From a virus, in the IMG/VR virus record IMGVR_UViG_3300043418_000119, positions 1 through 32,123 of that record: a stretch of 32,123 bases of DNA; one strand, given 5' to 3'. The notes beneath the pieces are model-generated. The model was not told where the DNA came from. It made no database searches and saw only the letters and a program-made list of their open reading frames with translations. The translations under genes and the position numbers were made by a program. This document shows positions 1-31,392 of the stretch, in pieces. Numbering within the stretch: the stretch's first letter is position 1; each line of letters opens with the position of its first letter.

Positions 1-127
1 GCTGTTTATATTTCGGGTGCTAACGGTACGAACATGATTGTTAGCCCTGCTTCTAACACTTCTGACGCTACTTCGGCTGAAACGATTGGTCTGTTGGAAA
101 CAGCGTTGGCTGTGAACGCTCAAGGGT
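1..127. repeat. Terminal direct repeat, left copy (circularisation overlap)
   Basis: These 127 bases are identical to the last 127 bases of the window. The reading frame of the tail-fibre gene continues through the junction without a stop, which fits one circular molecule whose ends are an assembly overlap. A length of 127 is a common assembler k-mer size. The repeat lies in a fibre gene rather than beside the terminase, so a packaged terminal repeat is less likely. Confidence 0.95.
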
Positions 128-1278
128 ATGTGATCACTGAGGGTTTGTTGTCGGGGTTGAATACGTCTTCTGCGACGGCGGGTGACCCAGTTTGGTTGGG
201 TGTAAATGGTGCGTTGTTGTACGGGTTGGCTAATAAACCTGTTGCGCCAACTCATTTGGTGTTTATGGGTGTTGTTACTCGTGCGCATGCTAATCAGGGT
301 GAAATCTTTGTTCACATTTCTAACGGTTGGGAACTTGACGAACTACATAATGTTCTAATCACTAACCCGACTAATAACCAGGTATTGACTTGGGAAGCTT
401 CAACTTCTTTGTGGAAGAACAAAGATGCGGCTTCTGGTGGGTTGACTTCGGTTGTGTTGTCTGCCCCGTTGACTGGTGGCACGATTACTTCGGCTGGCAC
501 GGTTGGTTTGAATCAGTCGGCTTTGAGTATTACTCGTAGTCAGGTTTCTGATTATGCGGCTGGTTCGGTTGCTTATGCGACTACTGCGGGTAGTGCGTCT
601 ACTGCTGGTGCGGCTTCTACGGCTGGTACAGCGATTTACGCGACTACGGCCGGTACTGCCACTTTTGCTACTACTAGCGGAACGGCCACATTTGCAACGT
701 CAGCTGGAACGGCTACGACTAGCGGAACAGCGAGTTACGCAACTACAAGCGGTACCGCGGTTTATGCGACTTCTACTGGATCAGTGGGAACAGCAACTTA
801 TGCAACCACTGCGGGTACTGCAACTTATGGCACTACTGCCGGTACTGCCGTTTATGCGACTACGGCGGGTACAGCGGTTTATGGGACTAGCGCAGGAACA
901 GCAACTACTGCTGGTACTGCTTCTTATGCGGTTACTAGCGGTACGGCTGTTTACGGCACGAACGCTGGTACTGCGGTTTACGCTACGAGTTCGGGTACAG
1001 CGGTTACGGCTGGTACGGCTTCGTATGCAACCACTTCAGGTACGGCCGTGTATGCGACTACTGCTGGTGGTGCGGTGCCTTCTGGGTCTGCTGGCGGCGA
1101 TTTGACGGGTACTTACCCTAACCCGACTTTGGGTACTGTGGCTGTTACGCCTGGTTCTTATACGTCTGCAAACATTACTGTTGATGCTAAGGGTCGTGTA
1201 ATTGCTGCGGCTAATGGTACTGGTGGCGGTGCTGCTGGTGATGCTTCTTTTTCTGATTTCCTAATGATGGGTGCGTAA
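1..1278 (+). CDS. Tail fibre protein, C-terminal portion (continues from 31721)
   Basis: This is the 3' part of a 517-aa fibre gene that starts at 31721 and crosses the circular junction; frame 1 is open from base 1. The first ATG here (34) is internal. The part before the repeats has the conserved phage-fibre stretch with YGLANKP and [11 protein letters not shown], found in many aquatic phage fibres. A long region of 8-residue repeats (GTAxYATT type) follows. The C-terminal motifs [12 protein letters not shown] and ITVDAKGRV are typical of phage tail-fibre proteins. Probably trimeric, surface-exposed and involved in adsorption. The next gene begins 4 bases after the stop. The fibre identity is secure; the receptor is unknown. 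Confidence 0.85.
562..1078 (+). repeat. Degenerate 24-bp coding repeats (GTAxYATT octapeptide array)
   Basis: About 170 residues of the fibre consist of variants of an eight-residue unit of the form GTA-aromatic-ATT-A/S. Glycine and threonine positions are kept and an aromatic residue (Y or F) recurs at a fixed place. The regular period suggests an extended beta-type or triple-stranded shaft. The DNA copies differ at synonymous sites, so the array is not a fresh expansion. Confidence 0.85.
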
Positions 1279-1282
1279 ATAA

Positions 1283-1609
1283 ATGGCTAATGCTTACAAG
1301 ATTCTGGGTCAGGCTGTTCCGGCTACTAGCGCGGATGTGATTACTGTTGGTGCAGCTAAGTCGCAGGTGGTTTCTACTCTTGTGGTGGCGAACACAACCA
1401 GTTCGGCGGCTACGGTGCGTGTGTATGCGCGTATTGCTGGTGCTGCGGCGGCTACCTCTAACGCCATTATTTACGATGTGACGGTGTTGGGTAACACTAC
1501 TCAGACTTACACGATGGGTATTACTTTGGCGGCCACTGATGTGTTGACGGTGGTTTCTGGCACTTCGGGTGCGTTGACTGTTACTGCGTTTGGATCTGAG
1601 GTCAGCTAG
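1283..1609 (+). CDS. Small beta-rich virion-associated protein (hypothetical)
   Basis: A 108-aa protein rich in Ala, Thr and Val. Alternating hydrophobic patterns suggest a beta-sandwich; no enzymatic motif, signal peptide or TM segment is visible. It sits directly between the long fibre and the first glycine-rich adhesin, and its stop overlaps the next start (TAGTG). Position suggests a virion part, perhaps a fibre connector or decoration protein. I do not recognise a named family. Confidence 0.7.
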   Translation: MANAYKILGQAVPATSADVITVGAAKSQVVSTLVVANTTSSAATVRVYARIAGAAAATSNAIIYDVTVLGNTTQTYTMGITLAATDVLTVVSGTSGALTVTAFGSEVS

Positions 1610-2475
1610 TGAGTGTTAGCACGATTGGTGCGAATACGAGTTTTCAGTCACCGTTTGGTTTGAAACTTAGGCAGACAATTACTTCTAGTGGTGCTGTTTC
1701 TGTGCCTGCTGGTGTTTCGTTTGTTTATGCGATTGTTGTCGGTGGTGGCGGATGCCCTGCCGCTGGTTCGGCTGGTGCGGGCGGTGGCGGTGGTGTCGCG
1801 TGGGGTTGGACACCTGCTGTCGGTGCTGCCGTTGTGGGTGCTGGTGGCATTGGAAATATTGGCGGCTACTCACGCTATGGCCTGATTATGGCAGGTGGCG
1901 GTGGGGCTTCAACAACTGCTGGCATTTTGGGCGGTGCGGGTGGTGGCGGTGCGGGTGCTGCTGGTGGTGCTGGAACAACAAACTACTGGGGTCAACCTGC
2001 TGGTTTGGGTGGTAGTTCTGCGGGTCGAATAGACGGCAGACCAGGTGTTTCTGCTGGCGGTGGCGGTTCTATCGCTATTGCGGGAACTGCTGGTAATGGC
2101 GGCAACGGCATTTCTGGTGGCGGTGGCGGGCAAGCTGCTGTGGCTTCAGGAACGATTGTTGCGGGCAATGGCGGTTCGGGTTTTATTGGTGGCGGTGGTG
2201 GAGTTGCTAACACATCCACTGGTTCACGCACGGGCGGTAATGGCGGTTCGGGTAAGTCTTTTATTGACGGCACAACTTATACAGGTGGAACAGGTTCTAC
2301 TGGAACAGGCACAGGTGGCGCGGGTGGCGGTGGTGCTGGATGCGCGGGCAATGGTTCTAATGCTTCGGGTAACGCTGCGGGTTCTGGTGGTTTGGGTGGT
2401 GGCGGTGGCGGTGCTGCGCCTACTGGTGGAACTTCTGCTGCTGGTGGTGCTGGAATCATTTACCTCTTCTACTAA
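1609..2475 (+). CDS. Glycine-rich adhesin-like protein 1
   Basis: 288 aa with a GTG start overlapping the previous stop. A short N-terminal beta domain containing LRQTITSSGAVSVP is followed by a very glycine-rich body with many GGGG runs, ending in GGAGIIYLFY. This architecture is seen in phage tail proteins carrying a glycine-rich domain. In T4-like gp38 adhesins, glycine-rich runs form polyglycine-II sandwiches that present receptor-binding loops. A host-recognition role is therefore likely by analogy. It is a paralogue of the next gene, with the same N-terminal motif and the same NIGGYS and IMAGGGG-type elements. Confidence 0.75.
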   Translation: MSVSTIGANTSFQSPFGLKLRQTITSSGAVSVPAGVSFVYAIVVGGGGCPAAGSAGAGGGGGVAWGWTPAVGAAVVGAGGIGNIGGYSRYGLIMAGGGGASTTAGILGGAGGGGAGAAGGAGTTNYWGQPAGLGGSSAGRIDGRPGVSAGGGGSIAIAGTAGNGGNGISGGGGGQAAVASGTIVAGNGGSGFIGGGGGVANTSTGSRTGGNGGSGKSFIDGTTYTGGTGSTGTGTGGAGGGGAGCAGNGSNASGNAAGSGGLGGGGGGAAPTGGTSAAGGAGIIYLFY

Positions 2476-2483
2476 AGGACACA

Positions 2484-3587
2484 ATGTCTACTTCAACAAC
2501 AACTAACCAGGTGATCCCTGAAACCCCTTACGGGTTGACGCTACGCCAGACTATTACTTCGTCTGGTGCGGTGAGTGTGCCTTCGGGTGTGAACCGTGTT
2601 TGGGCTGTTTGTATTGGTGGCGGCGGGTCAGGTGCAGCAATGTATGGGGCAACTCAAGCAACAGTAACCGCCGCTTCTGGAAACGGCACGACTGTGACTT
2701 ACACAGCCGCAAACACATTTATTGCAGGACAATATGTATCTATTACAGGTTTGACTATCGCTTCAGGTTCATCACTAAATCTTTCAACCGTTTTGATTGC
2801 TACTGCATCCAGCACACAGTTCACTGTAACCAACGCAACAGTTGGCGTATCAGCTGGCACAGGTTTAGCAACACCACATAATTACACAGGCGGTGGTGGT
2901 GGTGGCGGCATTAGCCAGGGTTGGACAAATGTCGTTTCAAATTGTGTTGTTGGTGCTGGTGGTGCAGGTGTCACAAACTCTGTTGGCAACATTGGTGGTT
3001 ATTCACAATTTGGTTCAATCATTGCTGGTGGTGGCGGTTCTGCTGCTGGCGGCGCACCATTGGTCAACCCGTTTGCGGCTGAATACGGTTCTGGTGGCGG
3101 CGGTGGCGGTATAGGTGCTGCTACTGCAAGTGGTGCTAGTTTTACTGGCGCACCATCGGCAACTGCTGCTGGAACTAATGGTGTTGGTGGTGGTGGTAAC
3201 TCGGCTGCTGGTGGTGCTTCGCCTGGTGGTTCAGGTGTTTCTGGCGGTGGCGGTGGCGGTATCACTGCGCTTACCAATACTGGAACTGCTGGTGCGGGCG
3301 GTTCAGGACTAATCGGCGGTGGTGGGGGAAGTTCTGCAACATTCGCTGGAACAGCAACAGGCGGTGCAGGTGGGTCAGGCGTAGGTGGTTCGGGCGGAAC
3401 AGGATCAACGGGAACTGGTTCATCATTTGGTGCTGGTGGCGGCGGTGCTGGTTTTATTGCTGCTGGTTCAAACGCATCAGGAATAAACGGTGGTGCTGGC
3501 GGTAATGGCGGTGGCGGCGGTGGTGCTGCTACTCAAGCAGGCACATCAGGCGCAGGCGGCAACGGCGTAATCTACCTCTACTACTAA
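2484..3587 (+). CDS. Glycine-rich adhesin-like protein 2, with inserted beta domain
   Basis: 367 aa, ATG preceded by AAAGGA. It is a tandem paralogue of the preceding gene: both share LRQTITSSGAVSVP near the N-terminus, NIGGYS in the middle and a C-terminal IIYLFY/VIYLYY end. Between residues about 56 and 127 it carries a Thr/Val/Ser-rich, non-glycine insert absent from its neighbour (motifs VTYTAANTF, GQYVSITGL, STQFTVTNA), resembling modular beta domains of phage fibres. Codons in the insert favour A-ending triplets (aca, gca) more than the flanks, which hints at recombination. Probable receptor-binding protein. Confidence 0.75.
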   Translation: MSTSTTTNQVIPETPYGLTLRQTITSSGAVSVPSGVNRVWAVCIGGGGSGAAMYGATQATVTAASGNGTTVTYTAANTFIAGQYVSITGLTIASGSSLNLSTVLIATASSTQFTVTNATVGVSAGTGLATPHNYTGGGGGGGISQGWTNVVSNCVVGAGGAGVTNSVGNIGGYSQFGSIIAGGGGSAAGGAPLVNPFAAEYGSGGGGGGIGAATASGASFTGAPSATAAGTNGVGGGGNSAAGGASPGGSGVSGGGGGGITALTNTGTAGAGGSGLIGGGGGSSATFAGTATGGAGGSGVGGSGGTGSTGTGSSFGAGGGGAGFIAAGSNASGINGGAGGNGGGGGGAATQAGTSGAGGNGVIYLYY

Positions 3588-3597
3588 GGAGAAACTT

Positions 3598-3780
3598 GTG
3601 GCAACTTTCGCTCAAATGTCAGGCAATACCGTCAGCAATGTGATTATGGCTGACAATAAAACAGCAACCGAACAAGCTTTGAACTGTGTGCTAATCGAAT
3701 ACACGGCTGACAACCCTGCCGGAATCGGTTGGGTTTACGATGAATCAACTGGCACATTTACACCACCACAGGGAGAGTAA
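3598..3780 (+). CDS. Small adhesin-associated protein (60 aa)
   Basis: GTG start behind a strong AAGGAGAAA site. The N-terminal pattern FAQMSGNTVSNVIMAD and the C-terminal YDESTGTFTPP match the small phage protein family typified by FAxLxxNxVxxVIVxD...TYDxxxxxFxPP, often found near tail-fibre genes. It directly follows a glycine-rich adhesin, as does its likely relative at 16813. Its stop overlaps the protease-fusion start (TAATG). Function unknown; a fibre accessory, tip or assembly role is inferred. Confidence 0.7.
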   Translation: MATFAQMSGNTVSNVIMADNKTATEQALNCVLIEYTADNPAGIGWVYDESTGTFTPPQGE

Positions 3781-5783
3781 TGCCGTATTACATTAGCGAT
3801 AAACAAGCCGATTGCCAGGGATGGGCAACAATAAAAGTCACCGACGGCAAACCAGAAACCATTACCTGCCACGGCGACAACAAGCAAGCTGCAACAGATC
3901 ACATGGTTGCTTTGTCAATGGCTGAAGGTATGAAACCTTTGGGTCAGTATTTTGGTGCTGGTGAACGCGATAACGGTGGTAACCGTGTATTGATTTGTGA
4001 CATTGATGACACACTCATTCATAACGGCATGTTGATTCAAGACACCGCCGATTTTGTCGCATCACAAGAAGTCGGCATCATGCTAGTCACTGGTCGCTTG
4101 GAAGCAACTAGGGCTTCAACTGTGGAACAACTTAGTAAACTAGGAATGGACTATGACCATTTGTTTATGAACGATTTAGGTTCACCAGCAAAAGCGGTTG
4201 AGTTCAAAAAGAAAACGGCTGAAGAACTTCTGAAACACTACGAAGTTGTTATGGCTATTGATAACGATGGTGGTGCGCGTGAAGCTTACGCTTCTTTGGG
4301 TATCCCTGTTGTTGACCCGACCCGACTACCTGCAAAGCGTGAAACGATGACCCCAGACCAAAACGCACCGGTTGTAGATGCGACCGTAAACCCGACGGAT
4401 GCGCCAGAGGCACCTTGCACGAAGCAGGACTTGGAACTGCGTTTGCGTGACCTACTCGGTGACGTTGTAACGTTCAAGTTCCTGGCACATGGTTTCCATT
4501 GGAATGTGCGCGGCATCAACTTCAGCCAGTTCCACGAGTTCTTTGGTGAGATTTACGAAGATGCCGACGGTTCTATTGATCCGATTGCAGAAAACATTCG
4601 CAAACTAAACTTTGACGCACCATTCAAGTTGCAGGATTTCATTGAATCAGCTGACGAACTTGAACCAACAGATTCCAGCGACCCACTGGAAATGAGCCGT
4701 AGCCTTTACATGGCTAACGAAGATGTGCGCGAAAGCATTATCCACGCCATCAGTCTTGCTGACGAACTGGGTGAGCAGGGAATTCTAAACTTCTTGGCTG
4801 AACGCCAAGACATGCACTCTAAATGGCAGTGGCAGTTGCGTGCCATCGTTGGGGATTCGTTCGCAAAGAACTATGAGATTGATGTTCAGGCTGTTTCTGA
4901 AGGTGTTCAGACCGGTGAGGGTAATGAGAAGCCACAGGAGATTGATACTGAAGGTCAGGGCAACCCAATGTCGGCTATCACCAACCCTAACGGCGCACCA
5001 ATGGTTGAGCAGAATAGTAACCAGACTAAGTGGACTAAGGCTGCGAACATGATTTTGCGTCGCCTTGAACCAGCACAGCAAGCACCGATGCCTGAAGCTC
5101 GTGACGCAAAGTTTGAAACTCGTGTGAATCATGTTGATTTTGAGTTGCGTGCGACTGCTGACGGCATGTCTTTTGAGGGTTACGCATCGGTTTTCAACAG
5201 CCCTTCTGAACCTATTGGTGGCCATTTCACTGAGTATGTTGCACCTGGTGCTTTCAAGCGTTCCCTTTCTAGCCGTAACGATGTGAAGTTGTTGTGGAAT
5301 CACGACACTGGGCAGGTGCTTGGATCAACTCGCGCCGGCACTTTGCAGCTCGTTGAAGATGCTCAGGGTTTGAAGGCTATTGCTACTTTGCCTGATACTC
5401 AGTTGGGTCGTGACACTGCAACCCTTATCAAGCGTGGTGACGTGGCTAACATGAGTTTTGGTTTTAGTGTGCCTGTTGGTGGCGATTCTTGGAACGCCGA
5501 GGGCAATGTTAGAACTTTGAACTCGGTTCGCCTTCACGAAGTGAGCATTGTTTCGTTCCCTGCATACCAGGCAACAACTGTTTCGGTTCGTTCAAACATT
5601 AGTGCTGACGCGCTCGCCGAATCATTGATGAAGTTGGAAAACGGCGAAGATTTGTCAGCTGACCAGGCAACGCTAATCAATGATGTTGTAACCCGTCTAA
5701 CCAAATCGGTGGAGGAAAACCCTGCTGAAGTTATTCTAGGATTGAAACAGAAGCAACTTGACCTAATGTTGAAAAGGATTTAG
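3780..5783 (+). CDS. HAD phosphatase / Dps-ferritin-like / HK97-type prohead protease fusion
   Basis: One uninterrupted 667-aa ORF with at least three domains. Residues 1-50 form a small cysteine-containing module (DCQGWA) seen at the front of some phage head proteins. Residues 68-185 look like a HAD hydrolase: DIDDT (D74, D76), VTGR (T104), a Lys-rich stretch and DNDGGA (D161, D163). Residues 213-365 resemble Dps: H240, H252, D267 and E271 have the spacing of the Dps ferroxidase ligands, and ERQDMHSKWQWQLR matches the last Dps helix. Residues 440-605 are a U35-type prohead protease with WNHD (H508), MSFGF (S559) and HEVSIVSFPAY. The protease should cleave the capsid delta domain inside the prohead, so the N-terminal domains may be carried in as cargo. 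Domain assignments are by motif; the combined function is unknown. Confidence 0.85.
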   Translation: MPYYISDKQADCQGWATIKVTDGKPETITCHGDNKQAATDHMVALSMAEGMKPLGQYFGAGERDNGGNRVLICDIDDTLIHNGMLIQDTADFVASQEVGIMLVTGRLEATRASTVEQLSKLGMDYDHLFMNDLGSPAKAVEFKKKTAEELLKHYEVVMAIDNDGGAREAYASLGIPVVDPTRLPAKRETMTPDQNAPVVDATVNPTDAPEAPCTKQDLELRLRDLLGDVVTFKFLAHGFHWNVRGINFSQFHEFFGEIYEDADGSIDPIAENIRKLNFDAPFKLQDFIESADELEPTDSSDPLEMSRSLYMANEDVRESIIHAISLADELGEQGILNFLAERQDMHSKWQWQLRAIVGDSFAKNYEIDVQAVSEGVQTGEGNEKPQEIDTEGQGNPMSAITNPNGAPMVEQNSNQTKWTKAANMILRRLEPAQQAPMPEARDAKFETRVNHVDFELRATADGMSFEGYASVFNSPSEPIGGHFTEYVAPGAFKRSLSSRNDVKLLWNHDTGQVLGSTRAGTLQLVEDAQGLKAIATLPDTQLGRDTATLIKRGDVANMSFGFSVPVGGDSWNAEGNVRTLNSVRLHEVSIVSFPAYQATTVSVRSNISADALAESLMKLENGEDLSADQATLINDVVTRLTKSVEENPAEVILGLKQKQLDLMLKRI

Positions 5784-6196: not shown

Positions 6197-7378
6197 ATGT
6201 CTGAGTTTCTAAAGGCACAGGTTGAGGAACGCCAGAAGCTTTGGCACGAGGCAAAGTCGGTTCTTGAAACCGCCGAAGCTGAGAGCCGTTCGCTAACTGG
6301 TGAGGAAGAGCAGAAGTACCAGGCTCTTTCGACCGAACTTGACCGTCGTGCATCGTTCATTGAGGAAGCCCGCAAGGTTGCTGAGCGCGAAGAGCGTGCC
6401 GCTGCACTTGCAAGCGACTTCACCGTTCCTTCTGTTTCGGCTTCGACCGACGCAGAGCAGATCCGTGCAATGGCTCGTGGAGAGAAGCGCAGCTTCGACT
6501 TCAGCAACGAGCAGCGTGCGATTGCACCAGCAAGCACCGGTGCGCCAGTACCAACTTCGTTCTACAACCAGGTTATTGGTGTAGCAAAGTTTGTCGGCCC
6601 GATGCTAACCACTTCGACCATGCTTCGCACCGCTTCGGGTGAGCCACTGCAGATTCCTTCGCAGGCAACTTACTCGGCTGGTACCCAGACCGCTGCTGGT
6701 TCGGCACTCACCGAGAGCGACCCAACCTTCAACGCGTTCAAGACCCTTCAGAGCTGGAAGTTCGGTGGCCTAATCACCATCGCACGCGAGCTACTTGAGG
6801 ACACTGGTGTTGACCTGCTCGGCTTCCTTGCAGACCAGATCGGTGTTGGACTTGGTTCGAGCATCAACGCAGCCCTAACCACTGGAACCGGTACCACTAC
6901 CCCACAGGGTATTGCAACCGTTGCAGCTTCGGGTGTTACTGGTGGAACTGGTGTTACCGGTGCGTTCACCGCTGACAACCTGATTGACCTTGTGTACTCG
7001 GTTAACACCGCTGCACGTCGTCGCCCAGGTGCTGGTTTCCAGATGAACTCTGCCGCTATCGCAGCCGTTCGTAAGCTCAAGGACAACTACGGTCGCTACA
7101 TTTTCGACCCAGCCCTTTCTGCTGACAAGAACGACCTTCTACTGGGTTACCCAATTTTTGAGAACCCAGACTTGGCTTCGCCAGCAACCAGTGCCACTTC
7201 GGTGCTGTTCGGTGACCTAGCCAGCTACTACGTTCGTGAGGTTGGCGGAATCCGTCTAGACCGCTCGGATGACTATGCGTTCGCTAACGACCAGGTAACC
7301 TTCCGTTACACCTGGCGTGGAGATGGCAACCTAATCCAGACTTCTCACGTTAAGAAGTTTGTTGGTGCTGCTAGCTAG
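6197..7378 (+). CDS. Major capsid protein, HK97 fold
   Basis: 393 aa behind a strong AAGGAG site. The N-terminal 75 or so residues are highly charged and helical (coiled coil), as in the HK97 delta/scaffold domain removed by the prohead protease. A linker then leads into the capsid core, with elements such as FVGPMLTTSTMLRT, WKFGGLITIARELLEDTG, YGRYIF and VTFRYTWRGDGN. It has its own promoter region and is flanked by terminators on both sides, so it is transcribed as a single gene. Codons are visibly biased to C/G-ending forms (AAC, TTC, ATC, ACC, AAG) unlike neighbouring genes, in keeping with very high expression. Confidence 0.93.
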   Translation: MSEFLKAQVEERQKLWHEAKSVLETAEAESRSLTGEEEQKYQALSTELDRRASFIEEARKVAEREERAAALASDFTVPSVSASTDAEQIRAMARGEKRSFDFSNEQRAIAPASTGAPVPTSFYNQVIGVAKFVGPMLTTSTMLRTASGEPLQIPSQATYSAGTQTAAGSALTESDPTFNAFKTLQSWKFGGLITIARELLEDTGVDLLGFLADQIGVGLGSSINAALTTGTGTTTPQGIATVAASGVTGGTGVTGAFTADNLIDLVYSVNTAARRRPGAGFQMNSAAIAAVRKLKDNYGRYIFDPALSADKNDLLLGYPIFENPDLASPATSATSVLFGDLASYYVREVGGIRLDRSDDYAFANDQVTFRYTWRGDGNLIQTSHVKKFVGAAS

Positions 7379-7391
7379 TAGCTTCTAAGCG

Positions 7392-7436
7392 GAATCCCCT
7401 CACCGGTGCGTAGGCTGGTGGGGGGATTCTTCTTTT
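7392..7436 (+). terminator. Rho-independent terminator after the capsid gene
   Basis: A 13-bp stem (7392-7404 with 7417-7429, one G-T pair; GAATCCCC against GGGGGATTC) and a 12-nt loop, followed by TTCTTTT. It isolates the capsid transcript from the glycosyltransferase genes. Confidence 0.9.
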
Positions 7437-7467
7437 GCTATTGTGGAGTTACTACGAAAGGAAAACA

Positions 7468-8634
7468 ATGCCAAAGGGTTCTATTAGTTGGTTCAGCAAT
7501 TCCCCTGACGCACCTACTGGTTATGGTGTGCAAACTAAGCAGGTTGTGAAACGCCTTCTTGATGATGATTACAAGGTTGCTATTTTGAGCAACTATGGTC
7601 GTGAGGGTGTTGATGGTGAAGTGCGTGTGGGGAATCATGTTATCCCTGAGTTTGCGCGTGGCACTGACGCTTATTCCCAAGACGTTACCCCATTGAACTT
7701 TCAAATGTGGAAAGCACAGAACCCTGGTATGCCTTCTGCGTTGATTACTTTGTATGACACTTGGATTATGAAGGGTGCGTATAAGGATGTTCCTATTGGG
7801 TCTTGGACACCTGTGGATCATCATCCTGCCCCACCACCAGTATTGGAGTGGTTGGCTCGCCCGAACGTGACCCCGATTGCTATGAGCAAGTTTGGTCAGA
7901 AAGTTATTCAGGATGCGGGCATTGAGGCTGAGTATGTGCCTCATGCTGTTGAGCGTGTGTTTCAACCAACTTCGATGGTTGGGAAGCAAACTAACCGCGA
8001 GTATTTGGGGTTTACGGATTCTGATTTCATTGTGGGTATGAACGCAGCTAATAAGGCTAATGGTTTGGTTCACCGTAAAGCGTTTGCTGAAAACTTGTTG
8101 GCGTTTGCTATTTTCGCTAAGAAACGTACTGATGCGAAACTGTATTTGCACACTGACATGTTTGGGGCTTTTGGTGGTTGGGCTTTGACCCCGTTGCTGG
8201 AATCAGTTGGTATTAGCACTGACCAGGTTGTGTTTGTGGATCAGATTGCTTACCGTAAGGGTATTTCGCAAAACATTTTGGCGGGTATTTATTCAGCATT
8301 TGACGTGTATTTGGGTGCGTCTTATGGTGAGGGTTTTGGTGTGGGTACGATTGAGGCTCAAGCTTGTGGTGTGCCGGTGATTGTTTCGGACTTTGCTGCG
8401 TCTAGTGAACTTGTTGGTGAGGGTTGGTTGGTTCAGGGTCAACCGTTGTGGGATCACCATCAGCGTGCCTGGTTCAATGTTCCTAACGTGAATAGCATTG
8501 TGGATGCCCTTGAGCAAGCGTATAAGCGCGGTAGGGGCGTTTCTGCTAAGGCTTTGGAGTTCGCTAAGCAATACGATGCTGATGCCGTGTATGAGGCGCA
8601 TTGGAAACCTGTTTTGGCTAAGTTGCTGAAGTGA
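7468..8634 (+). CDS. Glycosyltransferase, GT4-like (GT-B fold)
   Basis: 388 aa. ATG at 7468 is chosen over the upstream in-frame TTG at 7435 because AAAGGA sits 5 bases before it and the TTG lies in the terminator tail. The C-terminal half has the retaining GT4 signature E-x7-E (E288, E296) in GEGFGVGTIEAQACGVPVI, which binds the nucleotide-sugar donor. An N-terminal SNSPDAPTGYG loop suits the acceptor domain. It is the first gene of a three-gene cluster with a GT2-like enzyme and a nucleotidyltransferase, wedged between the capsid and connector genes. The likely role is glycosylation of a virion protein or a host envelope polymer; the sugar is unknown. Confidence 0.85.
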   Translation: MPKGSISWFSNSPDAPTGYGVQTKQVVKRLLDDDYKVAILSNYGREGVDGEVRVGNHVIPEFARGTDAYSQDVTPLNFQMWKAQNPGMPSALITLYDTWIMKGAYKDVPIGSWTPVDHHPAPPPVLEWLARPNVTPIAMSKFGQKVIQDAGIEAEYVPHAVERVFQPTSMVGKQTNREYLGFTDSDFIVGMNAANKANGLVHRKAFAENLLAFAIFAKKRTDAKLYLHTDMFGAFGGWALTPLLESVGISTDQVVFVDQIAYRKGISQNILAGIYSAFDVYLGASYGEGFGVGTIEAQACGVPVIVSDFAASSELVGEGWLVQGQPLWDHHQRAWFNVPNVNSIVDALEQAYKRGRGVSAKALEFAKQYDADAVYEAHWKPVLAKLLK

Positions 8635-28068: not shown

Positions 28069-28506
28069 ATGCCAACTCCACCAAAACCAGCTGAATTGAA
28101 AATCCTTCAGGGTAATCCTGGTAAGCGTTCTTTGCGTTTGAATGATGGTATTGCGCCTATGGAGTATGGCTACATTGAGCCGTTGCGCCCGTTGAGTCCA
28201 GTGGGCAAACAGTTCTGGGACACTATTTTTGGTGCTGGTGAATTGTGGATCAGCATTAAGACGGATACTCAACTTGTGCAGATGGTTTGTGAGTTACTTG
28301 ATCGGCGCGAAGTGTTGCGTGAAGCGTTTGTTGCTGACCCTACTAACCGACCTGTGAACATGTCTTTGTTGGAGACTGAAAAACAGATTGTGAACGCGTT
28401 TTCGTTGCTTGGGTTTACTCCGGCTGACCGTACCAGGTTGGGTTTGGTTTCGGCTAAGACTAAGTCGAAGTTGGAAGAGTTGTTGGCGCGTAAGGCTGCT
28501 CAGTGA
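28069..28506 (+). CDS. terS: Terminase small subunit, P27 family
   Basis: 145 aa from ATG 28069 (an in-frame TTG lies two codons upstream). MPTPPKPAELKILQGNPGKRSL is the hallmark start of P27-family small terminases, and the C-terminal helices (LLGFTPADRTRLGL) also match. It recognises the packaging site and stimulates the large subunit. Its stop overlaps the large subunit start (GTGA). Confidence 0.9.
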   Translation: MPTPPKPAELKILQGNPGKRSLRLNDGIAPMEYGYIEPLRPLSPVGKQFWDTIFGAGELWISIKTDTQLVQMVCELLDRREVLREAFVADPTNRPVNMSLLETEKQIVNAFSLLGFTPADRTRLGLVSAKTKSKLEELLARKAAQ

Positions 28507-30023
28507 GTTGGCCGCCACAATGGTTGACACCTGTTCCCGCTGAGGCTGTTGCCCAGGGTGATGGGTTGTTTGCGGCTGAGTTTGCGGAAACATTTGGGTC
28601 TATTGGTAAGGATGGGGTTACCGGTCGCACCGGTGATCCGTTGGTTATGAGGCCATGGCAGGTTTCGTTATTGCAAAACTTGTTTGCGCGTGACGAAGCT
28701 GGTGGTTTATTGGCGCGTACAGCGTTGATTGGTATGCCACGCAAAAATGGTAAATCGGCTTTGAGTTCGGCCGCTATTGGGCTTTATAGCCTGCTCGCTG
28801 AGGGTATCAATGGTGGTGAGGTGATTGCTATTGCTGCTGAAAAGGAACAGGCTCGCATTGTTTTTGGTGAAGCGAAACGAATGGTCGAATCAAGTGAGTT
28901 GTCTGAGCTAGTCCAGGTGTATAAGGATTCGATTTATGTGCCGTCAACTTCTAGTGTGTTCAAGGTCATGTCGGCGGAGGCTTACTCTAAAGAAGGTTTG
29001 AACCCTAGCCGTGTGATTATGGATGAGTTGCATGCCCATAAGAACCGTGATTTGTTCGATGTGTTTAGCCTGGCGATGGGTAACCGTGGCAAGATTGCTC
29101 AGTTGGTGGCGATTACAACAGCGGGTGTGAAGTCTGACATTACTGGTCAGGATTCCATTGCGTATTCGTTGTATCAGTATGGGCAGAAAGTTGCTCGCGG
29201 TGAGATTGTTGACCCGTCGTTTTTTATGGCTTGGTGGGAAGCTGACCCTGATGGTAATCATCGTGACCCTGAGCAGTGGCGTAAAGCAAACCCTGGGTTT
29301 GATGACATTATTTCTGAAGATGATTTCAAGTCGGCTGTTTTGCGTACACCTGAAGCGGAGTTTCGTACTAAGCGTTTGAATCAGTGGGTTTCTTCGCAGA
29401 TTAGTTGGTTGCCTAATGGGGTTTGGGAACCGTTGCGTGATGATGTGAACATTGATGATTATGAGATTATGTTGGGTTTTGATGGTTCGTTTAGTGGTGA
29501 CGCAACCGTTATTGTTGGTTGCACTATTCCTAAATCGCCTGATGATAATCCGCATTTGTTTATGGTGAAAGCTTGGGAAAAGGTTGACGGCGTTGATGAC
29601 GATAATTGGCGTGTGCCGATTCAGGATGTTGAAGAAGAAATTCTAAATTTTTGCGCAACTCATAAGGTGCGTGAAGTTGCTTGTGACCCATACCGGTGGC
29701 AACGTTCGATGGAAGTGTTGCAGGATAAAGGGATTCCTATTGTGGAGTATCCGTCTACTAATGCTAAACGCATGGTTACTGGGTGTGCAAAGTTTTTTGA
29801 TTATGTCACTGATGGGCGTATGAGCCATGACGGTAACCCGATGATTACCCGCCATTTGTCTAACGCTATTACTAAGACTGATTCGTTGGGTGTGCGTATT
29901 GTGAAAGAAAACCGTGCGAGTTCGCGTCGCATTGACGCAGCTGTGGCCGCGGTGATAGCCCTTGACCGTGCCACCGCAGGTAGACTAGATGTGCAGGTCA
30001 TTCCTGAATTCTTTTCTTTTTAG
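28503..30023 (+). CDS. terL: Terminase large subunit
   Basis: 506 aa with a GTG start. ATPase: Walker A-like GMPRKNGKS (77-85), Walker B VIMDEL (D174, E175). The RNase H-like nuclease has acidic residues D327 (GFDGSF), D395 (ACDPYRW) and D478 (RIDAAVA). HK97-type (Terminase_1) length and layout. It translocates DNA into the prohead through the portal encoded next. Confidence 0.95.
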   Translation: MSWPPQWLTPVPAEAVAQGDGLFAAEFAETFGSIGKDGVTGRTGDPLVMRPWQVSLLQNLFARDEAGGLLARTALIGMPRKNGKSALSSAAIGLYSLLAEGINGGEVIAIAAEKEQARIVFGEAKRMVESSELSELVQVYKDSIYVPSTSSVFKVMSAEAYSKEGLNPSRVIMDELHAHKNRDLFDVFSLAMGNRGKIAQLVAITTAGVKSDITGQDSIAYSLYQYGQKVARGEIVDPSFFMAWWEADPDGNHRDPEQWRKANPGFDDIISEDDFKSAVLRTPEAEFRTKRLNQWVSSQISWLPNGVWEPLRDDVNIDDYEIMLGFDGSFSGDATVIVGCTIPKSPDDNPHLFMVKAWEKVDGVDDDNWRVPIQDVEEEILNFCATHKVREVACDPYRWQRSMEVLQDKGIPIVEYPSTNAKRMVTGCAKFFDYVTDGRMSHDGNPMITRHLSNAITKTDSLGVRIVKENRASSRRIDAAVAAVIALDRATAGRLDVQVIPEFFSF

Positions 30024-30033
30024 GCGGTAGATT

Positions 30034-31392
30034 TTGGCAAACTGGTGGTCAAGGTTGACGGGCGCAGAGGAACGCGCCATTTCTTTTCAAAGCATTTGGG
30101 GTGCTGGTGATTCCCTTGCTTGGCAGTCCGATTCGGGTGCAAGCGTTACCCCTGATTCTTCGTTCAGCATTGTTCCGTTCTATTCCGCTGTAAACCTTAT
30201 TTCGGGTACCATTTCGACTTTGCCTGTTGATTCTTTTGTTCGTAAGAATGGGCAACGTGTTCCTTACCGACCTAAGCCTTTGTGGGTTACTAAGCCGGAC
30301 ATTGATTTGGTGGCTGGTCAAGCTCACTGGCAGCAGGTTCTAATCAGTTTGTTGGTGTGGGGTAACTCTTACACTCGTGTTTTCCGTGATCCAAAAACTC
30401 TTGAGATTGTGAACCTTGTAGTCCTTGACCCAACTTTGGTTGATGTGAAGCGAAACGCTGTTGGGCGCAAGATTTACACTTACCAGGGTGAGGTAGGCAA
30501 GTCGCTTACTTCTGATGAGATTTTGCACATCACTGACATTTTGTTGCCTGGTGCTGTGAAAGGTAAGGGTCGTGTTGAGGCTCTTAAGGAAAACTTGGGC
30601 TTGGACATTGCGTTGCAGTCTTTTGCAGCTCGCTTCTTTGGTGGTGGCACCCAGACTTCGGGAATTATCGAATACCCTGGTGCGTTGACCGCTCAGCAAG
30701 CTAAGGATTTGGCTAACGGGTTTGATAACCGTCACAAGGGTTACCGTAATGCTCACCGCACCGGTGTTCTTTCGGGTGGAGCTAAATACACTCAGACTTC
30801 TACCCCAAATGACGCTAACCAGTTCATTCAGTCGCGTGAGTTCGCGGTATTGGACATTGCTCGCGCGTTTCAGATTCCACCGTTTATGTTAGGTGTGCCT
30901 GGTACTACGTCTTATGCCAGCGTTGAACAGATGGCAATTGATTTTGTAACCCACACTTTGCGCCCGTATGTGGAACGCCTAGAAGCCGCTTACAGCACTT
31001 TGTTGCCTGATAATGCGTTCTTGAAGTGGAACCTTGATGGACTTATTCGTGCTGATTTTGCTACTCGTATGCAGGGTTACAGTATTGCTATTCAGGGTGG
31101 TTGGATGAGCATCAATGACATTCGTACCCTTGAGGACTTTAAGCCGACTGATGGTGGCGACGCTTACCGTGTACCACTAGCGAACGTGAACCTATCAGCT
31201 GCGGAGTTGTCGGCCGATGAAATCAAGGTGAAAATGGCCGCGGAACTTATTAGTCAAGGTTTTGCACCGGAAGAAGTTCTTTCCGCTATGGGTCTGCCAC
31301 AGATTACTCACACTGGTGTTCCTTCTGTGAAGTTGCAACCTGTTGCTTCTATTGATCCGAACGCACCTGAAACTGTTTACGGAGGTAACTAA
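30034..31392 (+). CDS. Portal protein, HK97 type
   Basis: 452 aa from TTG 30034. FYSAVNLISGTISTLPVD, LLVWGNSYTRVFRD and IPPFMLGVP are standard blocks of the HK97 portal family. It forms the dodecameric vertex ring for DNA entry and tail attachment. Its stop overlaps the next gene (TAATG). Unusually, six adhesin-type genes separate it from the protease. Confidence 0.93.
   Translation: MANWWSRLTGAEERAISFQSIWGAGDSLAWQSDSGASVTPDSSFSIVPFYSAVNLISGTISTLPVDSFVRKNGQRVPYRPKPLWVTKPDIDLVAGQAHWQQVLISLLVWGNSYTRVFRDPKTLEIVNLVVLDPTLVDVKRNAVGRKIYTYQGEVGKSLTSDEILHITDILLPGAVKGKGRVEALKENLGLDIALQSFAARFFGGGTQTSGIIEYPGALTAQQAKDLANGFDNRHKGYRNAHRTGVLSGGAKYTQTSTPNDANQFIQSREFAVLDIARAFQIPPFMLGVPGTTSYASVEQMAIDFVTHTLRPYVERLEAAYSTLLPDNAFLKWNLDGLIRADFATRMQGYSIAIQGGWMSINDIRTLEDFKPTDGGDAYRVPLANVNLSAAELSADEIKVKMAAELISQGFAPEEVLSAMGLPQITHTGVPSVKLQPVASIDPNAPETVYGGN

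Follow-up and report, generated by a model that had tools for sequence, protein, structure and literature searches.

A Dps domain inside the capsid-maturing protease of an uncultured bacterial virus family suggests that Dps may be carried into the particle as cargo

Why would a bacterial virus build a Dps domain, a module for iron handling and DNA protection, into the enzyme that matures its capsid? The question is raised by an open reading frame of 667 aa (3780-5783, + strand, stop-free translation) in the window, by which we mean the whole analysed stretch of 32,123 nt (IMG/VR record IMGVR_UViG_3300043418_000119, positions 1 to 32,123). Its chain is composed of an N-terminal domain, a HAD phosphatase, a Dps domain and an S78 prohead protease, a layout common to 15 viral contig clusters. 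The existence of an uncultured virus family with Dps inside its capsid-maturing enzyme suggests that Dps would be carried into the particle as cargo.

All parts of the frame lie on the + strand. The N-terminal domain (residues 1-57, 3780..3950), for which we coin the label SDKQ domain, has no match in a Pfam scan and is 48% identical to the protease of the cultured Pontimonas phage phiPsal1. It is followed by the HAD-type phosphatase domain (residues 68-185, 3981..4334), in which the motifs DIDDT, VTGR, K and DND are intact. A linker of 28 residues with predicted disorder (residues 186-213, 4335..4418; pLDDT <50 at 184-211) leads to the Dps domain (residues 214-360, 4419..4859), and a second linker of 85 residues, mostly predicted disordered (residues 361-445, 4860..5114; pLDDT <50 at 368-447), leads to the Peptidase S78 prohead protease domain (residues 446-612, 5115..5615; PF04586, 169.2 bits) and its C-terminal helical segment (residues 613-667, 5616..5780). 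The full-length model is of low confidence (mean pLDDT 66.9), with most of both linkers below 50. We considered an internal start producing a free protease, given ATG codons at residues 397, 408, 424 and 437, and rejected it. No single ATG is conserved throughout the 14 aligned sequences; the ATG in the QMNS/EMNS stretch is present in many relatives and absent from the frame in the window, and in two relatives (L008 and L009) the stretch is devoid of ATG codons. Comparison by eye of the linkers with the capsid arm gave no usable common cleavage-site motif.

Directly downstream of the fusion lies an HK97-type major capsid protein (6197..7378, +; PF05065, 179.9 bits). Terminase large subunit (28503..30023, +; PF03354 and PF20441) and portal protein (30034..31392, +; PF04860, 265.5 bits) are encoded at the opposite end of the window, an arrangement that resembles a permuted circle; the record itself is classed as linear. 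The order portal, fusion, capsid is seen in relatives. Phage phiPsal1 shares the gene order terminase-portal-protease-capsid-glycosyltransferase, the same N-terminal domain and S78, whereas its protease is without HAD and without Dps; from this phage alone, Pontimonas or a related actinobacterium would be a tentative guess for the host. The group 1 glycosyltransferase gene of the window (7435-8634) lies directly 3' of the capsid gene, as in phiPsal1. Glycine-rich and putative tail-fibre frames occupy 34-3780, upstream of the protease; in the case of a permuted circle they would separate portal from protease.

The protease is conserved in the residues expected of an active enzyme. H508, S559 and E587, which we take to be the catalytic residues as in the S78 family, are invariant in 15 aligned proteins. 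The full set of protease motifs is found in 35 of 43 S78 fusions and in 39 of 40 fusions of a divergent type; at least one motif pattern is missed in 8 of the 43, some of which are cut reading frames. Protease domain, catalytic motifs and, in relatives, the position between portal and capsid genes are those of S78 prohead proteases of the HK97 gp4 type, from which the fusion differs by carrying HAD and Dps N-terminal of the protease. From HK97 and D3 we infer that the protease of this phage would be capsid-bound, as an earlier note made from the sequence alone had described it.

That note had also assigned 4416-4875 to a Dps domain; these coordinates span residues 213-365, and database comparison confirms the assignment. 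The domain matches PF00210 (Ferritin) at 57.5 bits against a cut-off of 24.5 and PHROG 3636 at 1.7e-22. A PDB sequence search returns Dps 8ff9 at E 9e-15 and Listeria innocua Dps (1qgh) at E 1.4e-7, and a profile search with the domain finds 8ff9 at 4.8e-27. In the AlphaFold2 model (pLDDT 91.2; helices 10-37, 43-70, 79-82, 97-125 and 128-152) the domain is predicted as a four-helix ferritin-like bundle whose BC loop contains a short helix. Alignment to Dps structures, which the earlier note had proposed as a check, gives Dps as the best matches, with Z 19.8 and 2.5 A over 146 residues for 8ff9 (P. aeruginosa PA0962) and Z 18.6 and 2.1 A over 146 residues for 1qgh. Bacterioferritins reach Z 18-19 too, so that the fold by itself is not decisive for Dps. 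A ferritin or bacterioferritin identity was rejected; fold scores are close, yet sequence and ligands favour Dps.

The four ferroxidase ligands are present at the Listeria spacing. Translation and a pattern search bear out the earlier reading of His240 (4497..4499, +; position 0), His252 (4533..4535, +; +12), Asp267 (4578..4580, +; +27) and Glu271 (4590..4592, +; +31), and also that position +16 is a glycine (Gly256, 4545..4547, +). In L. innocua Dps we assume +16 to be an acidic ligand and the full ligand list to include D47 and E62. In the alignment to 1qgh, residue 11 of the model falls on residue 7 of the chain, which places the phage ligands on chain residues 31, 43, 58 and 62 if the first two helices are gap-free. 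The titles of PDB 2bk6 and 2bjy mention H31 and H43, and PMC6712498 mentions D58 of Listeria Dps. The pattern H-x11-H-x14-D-x3-E has a single occurrence in the 667-aa protein. Shuffling the whole protein 20,000 times produces it in 33 cases, and shuffling the domain alone 20,000 times produces it in 24. With such low counts the pattern is unlikely by chance; homology decides.

Fold, four ferroxidase ligands and the HW motif are shared with the Dps family (PF00210; 1qgh, 8ff9). The domain differs from it in being embedded in a head protease, in lacking an acid at +16, in carrying Asn337 (4788..4790, +) where bacterial Dps have Asp, and in being far more acidic. Its net charge is -16, and that of the N-terminal linker -3; mean Dps charge is -16.2 for the S78 type versus -6.2 for bacterial Dps. 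This charge argues against DNA condensation or binding by basic tails, and a Dps without DNA binding is on record in the title of PDB 1o9r. By its sequence, its predicted fold and the four ligands, we conclude that the phage domain is a true member of the Dps family, in a molecular setting that is new.

If the domain is a Dps, the question becomes whether its iron site matters to the phage. Among 77 non-redundant phage Dps domains, the ligands H240, H252, D267 and E271 are kept in 76, 77, 77 and 76, respectively, and each of the four is kept in 76 of 76 near bacterial Dps. Position +16 is variable both in the phage domains (G 50, E 12, Q 9, A 3, S 2, C 1) and in the bacterial ones (M 51, E 19, Q 6), which indicates that the four ligands are constrained and +16 is not. 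On these counts an acidic +16 is not a defining feature of Dps. Standalone phage Dps also carry Gly at +16, so that the lack of an acid there is not specific to the fusion. The first scan covered 40 loci and is biased by its query peptide QFHEFFGE, which contains H252 and G256. A control set was therefore collected with the C-terminal half of the domain as the only query, although some of its clusters overlap the first scan; in its 38 non-redundant domains the ligands are kept in 37, 38, 38 and 37.

The Dps domain is under strong purifying selection. The dN/dS comparison across related phages that the earlier note had called for (Nei-Gojobori, Dps domain) was computable in 7 of 12 pairs, with values of 0, 0, 0.035, 0.033, 0.071, 0.096 and 0.062; the other five pairs, including all three with the window, are saturated at synonymous sites, so the figures describe relatives only. 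In most pairs the linkers change faster in amino-acid sequence than the domains. A relic or chance fusion without function is therefore hardly credible to us: the frame is open in many separate contigs, dN/dS is 0 to 0.096, and we found no supporting point for such a relic in this analysis.

Whether iron binding itself is what selection acts on, as the earlier note had argued from ligand retention, is answered in part. The near-invariance of the four ligands and the purifying selection speak for it, and across the phage Dps sequences compared the ferroxidase site, not merely the fold, is held. The argument nevertheless needs qualifying. W241, Y259 and W351 are as invariant as the ligands in the control set, so that conservation alone does not isolate iron binding, and a relative whose fusion partners are an S78_2 protease and a kinase-like domain (L020) has S, H, C, D and Q at the five positions. 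By its sequence this is one natural ligand loss in a fused protein. The same two observations would fit a purely architectural role, in which Dps is kept for a dimer or 12-mer that draws proteases and scaffold together in the core of the procapsid, with ligand-bound metal serving just to stabilise the interface of the dimer, since structural residues are then as constrained as ligands and the L020 domain could outlive its ligands. Such a role would also suit the divergent type, where Dps sits between the protease and a scaffold-like tail. We nevertheless regard it as unlikely. A merely structural role would not demand ligand retention in at least 76 of 77 domains, phage Dps are mostly separate small genes, and Dps was gained or lost at least six times while the protease stayed, which means that assembly does not need Dps.

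Residue 337, presumably the iron-entry position at the threefold pore, is N in 73 of 77 phage domains versus D in 73 of 76 bacterial Dps, and the exchange could weaken iron entry. This bears on the idea that capsid-borne Dps brings an iron core to the next host as a nutrient or lure. Intact ferroxidase ligands are what this idea would need, but the presumed pore Asp is replaced by Asn, and the notion of phage iron as a lure is one about tails. We consider it very improbable.

The fusion is not a single event. Queries with Dps, S78, divergent S78 and S78_2 gave loci in 101 viral contig clusters, of which 36 have Dps and a prohead protease in one reading frame, a proportion that rests on fused-protein and protease queries and is not a population frequency. 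Three protease types and both domain orders are represented. S78 accounts for 19 of the 36 clusters, namely the full layout of the window (15), HAD-Dps-S78 (1, on a cut contig) and Dps-S78 (3); the divergent S78 type, with Dps C-terminal to the protease, accounts for 14 and S78_2-Dps for 3. The remaining clusters have Dps without protease (22) or protease without Dps (43). All 10 proteins of the divergent type that were scanned have both domains above the Pfam cut-off, as do L019 and L322; in L020 the contig ends within the protease part, which stays below the cut-off. Among host genome contigs, 1 of 80 loci has Dps and S78 in one frame (L164). It is a 4.7 kb contig from a Betaproteobacteria MAG bin that carries terminase and portal, and we read it as a phage contig. 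Two further arrangements involve DUF5824: an 803-aa protein has Dps at its N terminus together with a DUF5824 domain (L026:5968-8376), and DUF5824 is N-terminal of S78 in L119, L124, L141 and L152.

A tree built from 96 Dps domains shows six changes between the fused and the separate state, one of them due to a cut reading frame; for the S78 fusions it shows five changes, at least three of them by supported branches. Dps presence changes three times, and at least twice, on the S78 tree. On the tree of the divergent type, with 16 members carrying Dps and 28 without, parsimony counts 10 gains or losses, and at least 6. The protease trees thus show Dps as a cassette, repeatedly acquired or dropped by a protease that is itself retained. 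Divergent-type proteins run from the protease through Dps into a tail rich in Ala and Glu, which closes with a conserved stretch and is probably scaffold-like. At the sole locus of this type checked for its neighbours (L062), the fusion is followed by a major-head-protein gene, with the portal gene on the opposite strand. Portals from contigs with divergent fusions carry, in 5 of 5 scanned, PF04860 and a HAD domain detected by our own HMM, Pfam HAD-type scores being at or below cut-off on these five; the same accessory domain is thus attached to another head protein. The HAD is C-terminal in these portals (L064:2154-4361(-), also L066, L070, L078 and L081).

Phage Dps genes as such are already known (PMC8008677), and the fusion is present in databases: in BFVD, Dps-fold entries named 'Prohead protease' appear at ranks 1, 5 and 10. 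It is undiscussed in the literature searched, as we found no paper describing a Dps-protease fusion in the open-access literature. Most phage Dps genes are separate. A profile scan for standalone Dps gave 79 new loci among the best 80 of 565 relatives, 78 of them standalone and 1 fused. Standalone phage Dps (PHROG 3636; Gratiaviridae, Lactobacillus phage Dps) have the same ligands, and most from IMG/VR belong to the same phage-side group of the tree, with L090 and L091 among bacterial rows. They differ from the fusion in being separate genes, which PMC8008677 discusses as antioxidants of the infected cell. The next gene encodes the N-terminal domain (20) or a HAD domain (7) in 27 of 68 clusters with standalone Dps. 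Parts that are fused in the window thus often lie side by side in other phages, and this supports a functional connection among them. At two loci the Dps gene adjoins an S78_2 protease gene (L327:4764-6950 and 7216-7866; L410:3881-4429 and 4469-5059), and the protease frame of L327 also has a Zeta_toxin-type kinase domain.

The standalone majority speaks for another explanation, in which Dps is an antioxidant auxiliary gene acting in the infected cell, the role that the authors of PMC8008677 propose for Dps of gut phages. Its link to the protease would then provide nothing but late and strong expression. Repeated fusion to three protease types in both orders is left unexplained by this view, as is the fusion of HAD to the portal in the same phages, and the same expression could be obtained by gene overlap or operon placement. 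We judge this explanation to be rather unlikely.

We give an even chance to the reading that this is a genuine Dps with an intact four-ligand site of the intersubunit type and that its fusion to the protease serves procapsid loading. Prohead proteases enter the procapsid. The S78 part would be the targeting device that carries the chain inside, and Dps its passenger. During maturation the protease would cut the two disordered linkers and free Dps, and with it the HAD phosphatase. Dps subunits could then dimerise or form a 12-mer within the head, in a cage too big for the shell pores; 60 chains are enough for five 12-mers. Freed Dps may stay in the head or enter the next cell with the DNA. By taking up ferrous iron and consuming peroxide it would shield DNA that is packaged or has just been injected against Fenton damage, a protection that would work without DNA binding, given the strongly acidic domain.

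Precedents for parts of this route are available. About 60 protease copies per procapsid are reported for HK97 and about 90 for D3 (PMC12749128). Internal proteins of T4 are imported by means of a short targeting peptide, which is then removed and presumably exits through pores, and they reach the host together with the DNA (PMC7411985). Listeria Dps can bear a fusion partner at its N terminus (PMC6712498). As proposed here for Dps, T4 internal proteins and Alt, and DarB of P1, reach the host by prohead loading, with trimming by proteolysis in T4. The T4 signal is a short targeting sequence, and DarB has been examined for one as well (PMC7411985, PMC9024508), whereas the carrier here would be the protease itself.

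The procapsid-loading reading is supported by recurrence with three protease types in both orders, by the at least six gains or losses of Dps, by the kept ligands and low dN/dS (0 to 0.096), by the HAD domain on portals, and by intact protease and HAD motifs and linkers with predicted disorder. Against it count the standalone majority, the fusion kept in L020 despite lost ligands, the possibly weakened iron entry at N337 and the 8 S78 fusions with a missed protease motif pattern. D3 Prohead 2 shows only cleaved capsid protein and no protease band (PMC12749128), so that Dps might or might not survive maturation. If loading does occur, a ferritin-family enzyme works within a virus head, which would explain why phages retain the ferroxidase ligands and would offer a genetically encoded cargo route into HK97-type capsids. 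It would also allow a direct test of whether phages shield packaged or arriving DNA from oxidative damage, and other enzymes fused to prohead proteases would become candidate virion cargo.

The motifs of the HAD partner are matched in 38 of 38 fusions. The domain scores 36.3 bits for Acid_phosphat_B (cut-off 27), with HAD_PNKP below cut-off, and matches phrog_415 (polynucleotide kinase) at 7e-13; the best PDB match of the HAD profile is Pnkp1 (4xrp, 5e-6). The substrate is not fixed by any of the Pfam or PDB matches. As a PNKP-like phosphatase it may clean damaged 3' ends. More tentatively, and as a possibility we would not rate highly, prohead proteases and portals of several phage groups may be loading hooks for a changing protective kit that is freed by maturation and delivered with the genome. 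Such a kit could comprise Dps, a PNKP-like 3' phosphatase, a zeta-like kinase and a 2H-phosphoesterase for nucleic-acid ends or signals, and the virion would carry oxidative-damage protection together with end repair or counter-defence into the next cell.

A cultured phage with the Dps fusion was not found in INPHARED. The 667-aa protein matched 708 records, none covering 80%, and no record covered 80% of the type proteins L058, L019 and L164. The Dps domain matched 15 records, of which the annotated ones are Dps-like, DNA-binding or hypothetical. Roseobacter phage CRP-811 appeared promising as a carrier, but was rejected, its locus being without a Dps match. Its gp45 (L415:4559-7006) is an 816-aa frame combining TUDOR, S78 protease and capsid, and is annotated as major capsid protein. 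In Arthrobacter phage Laroye gp18 (L416:1784-2902) and Microbacterium phage ValentiniPuff gp7 (L417:1748-2917), a 2'-5' RNA ligase/2H phosphoesterase domain (PF13563) is fused to an S78_2 protease. These two fusions place another enzyme on a prohead protease, in cultured phages that are a tractable test case.
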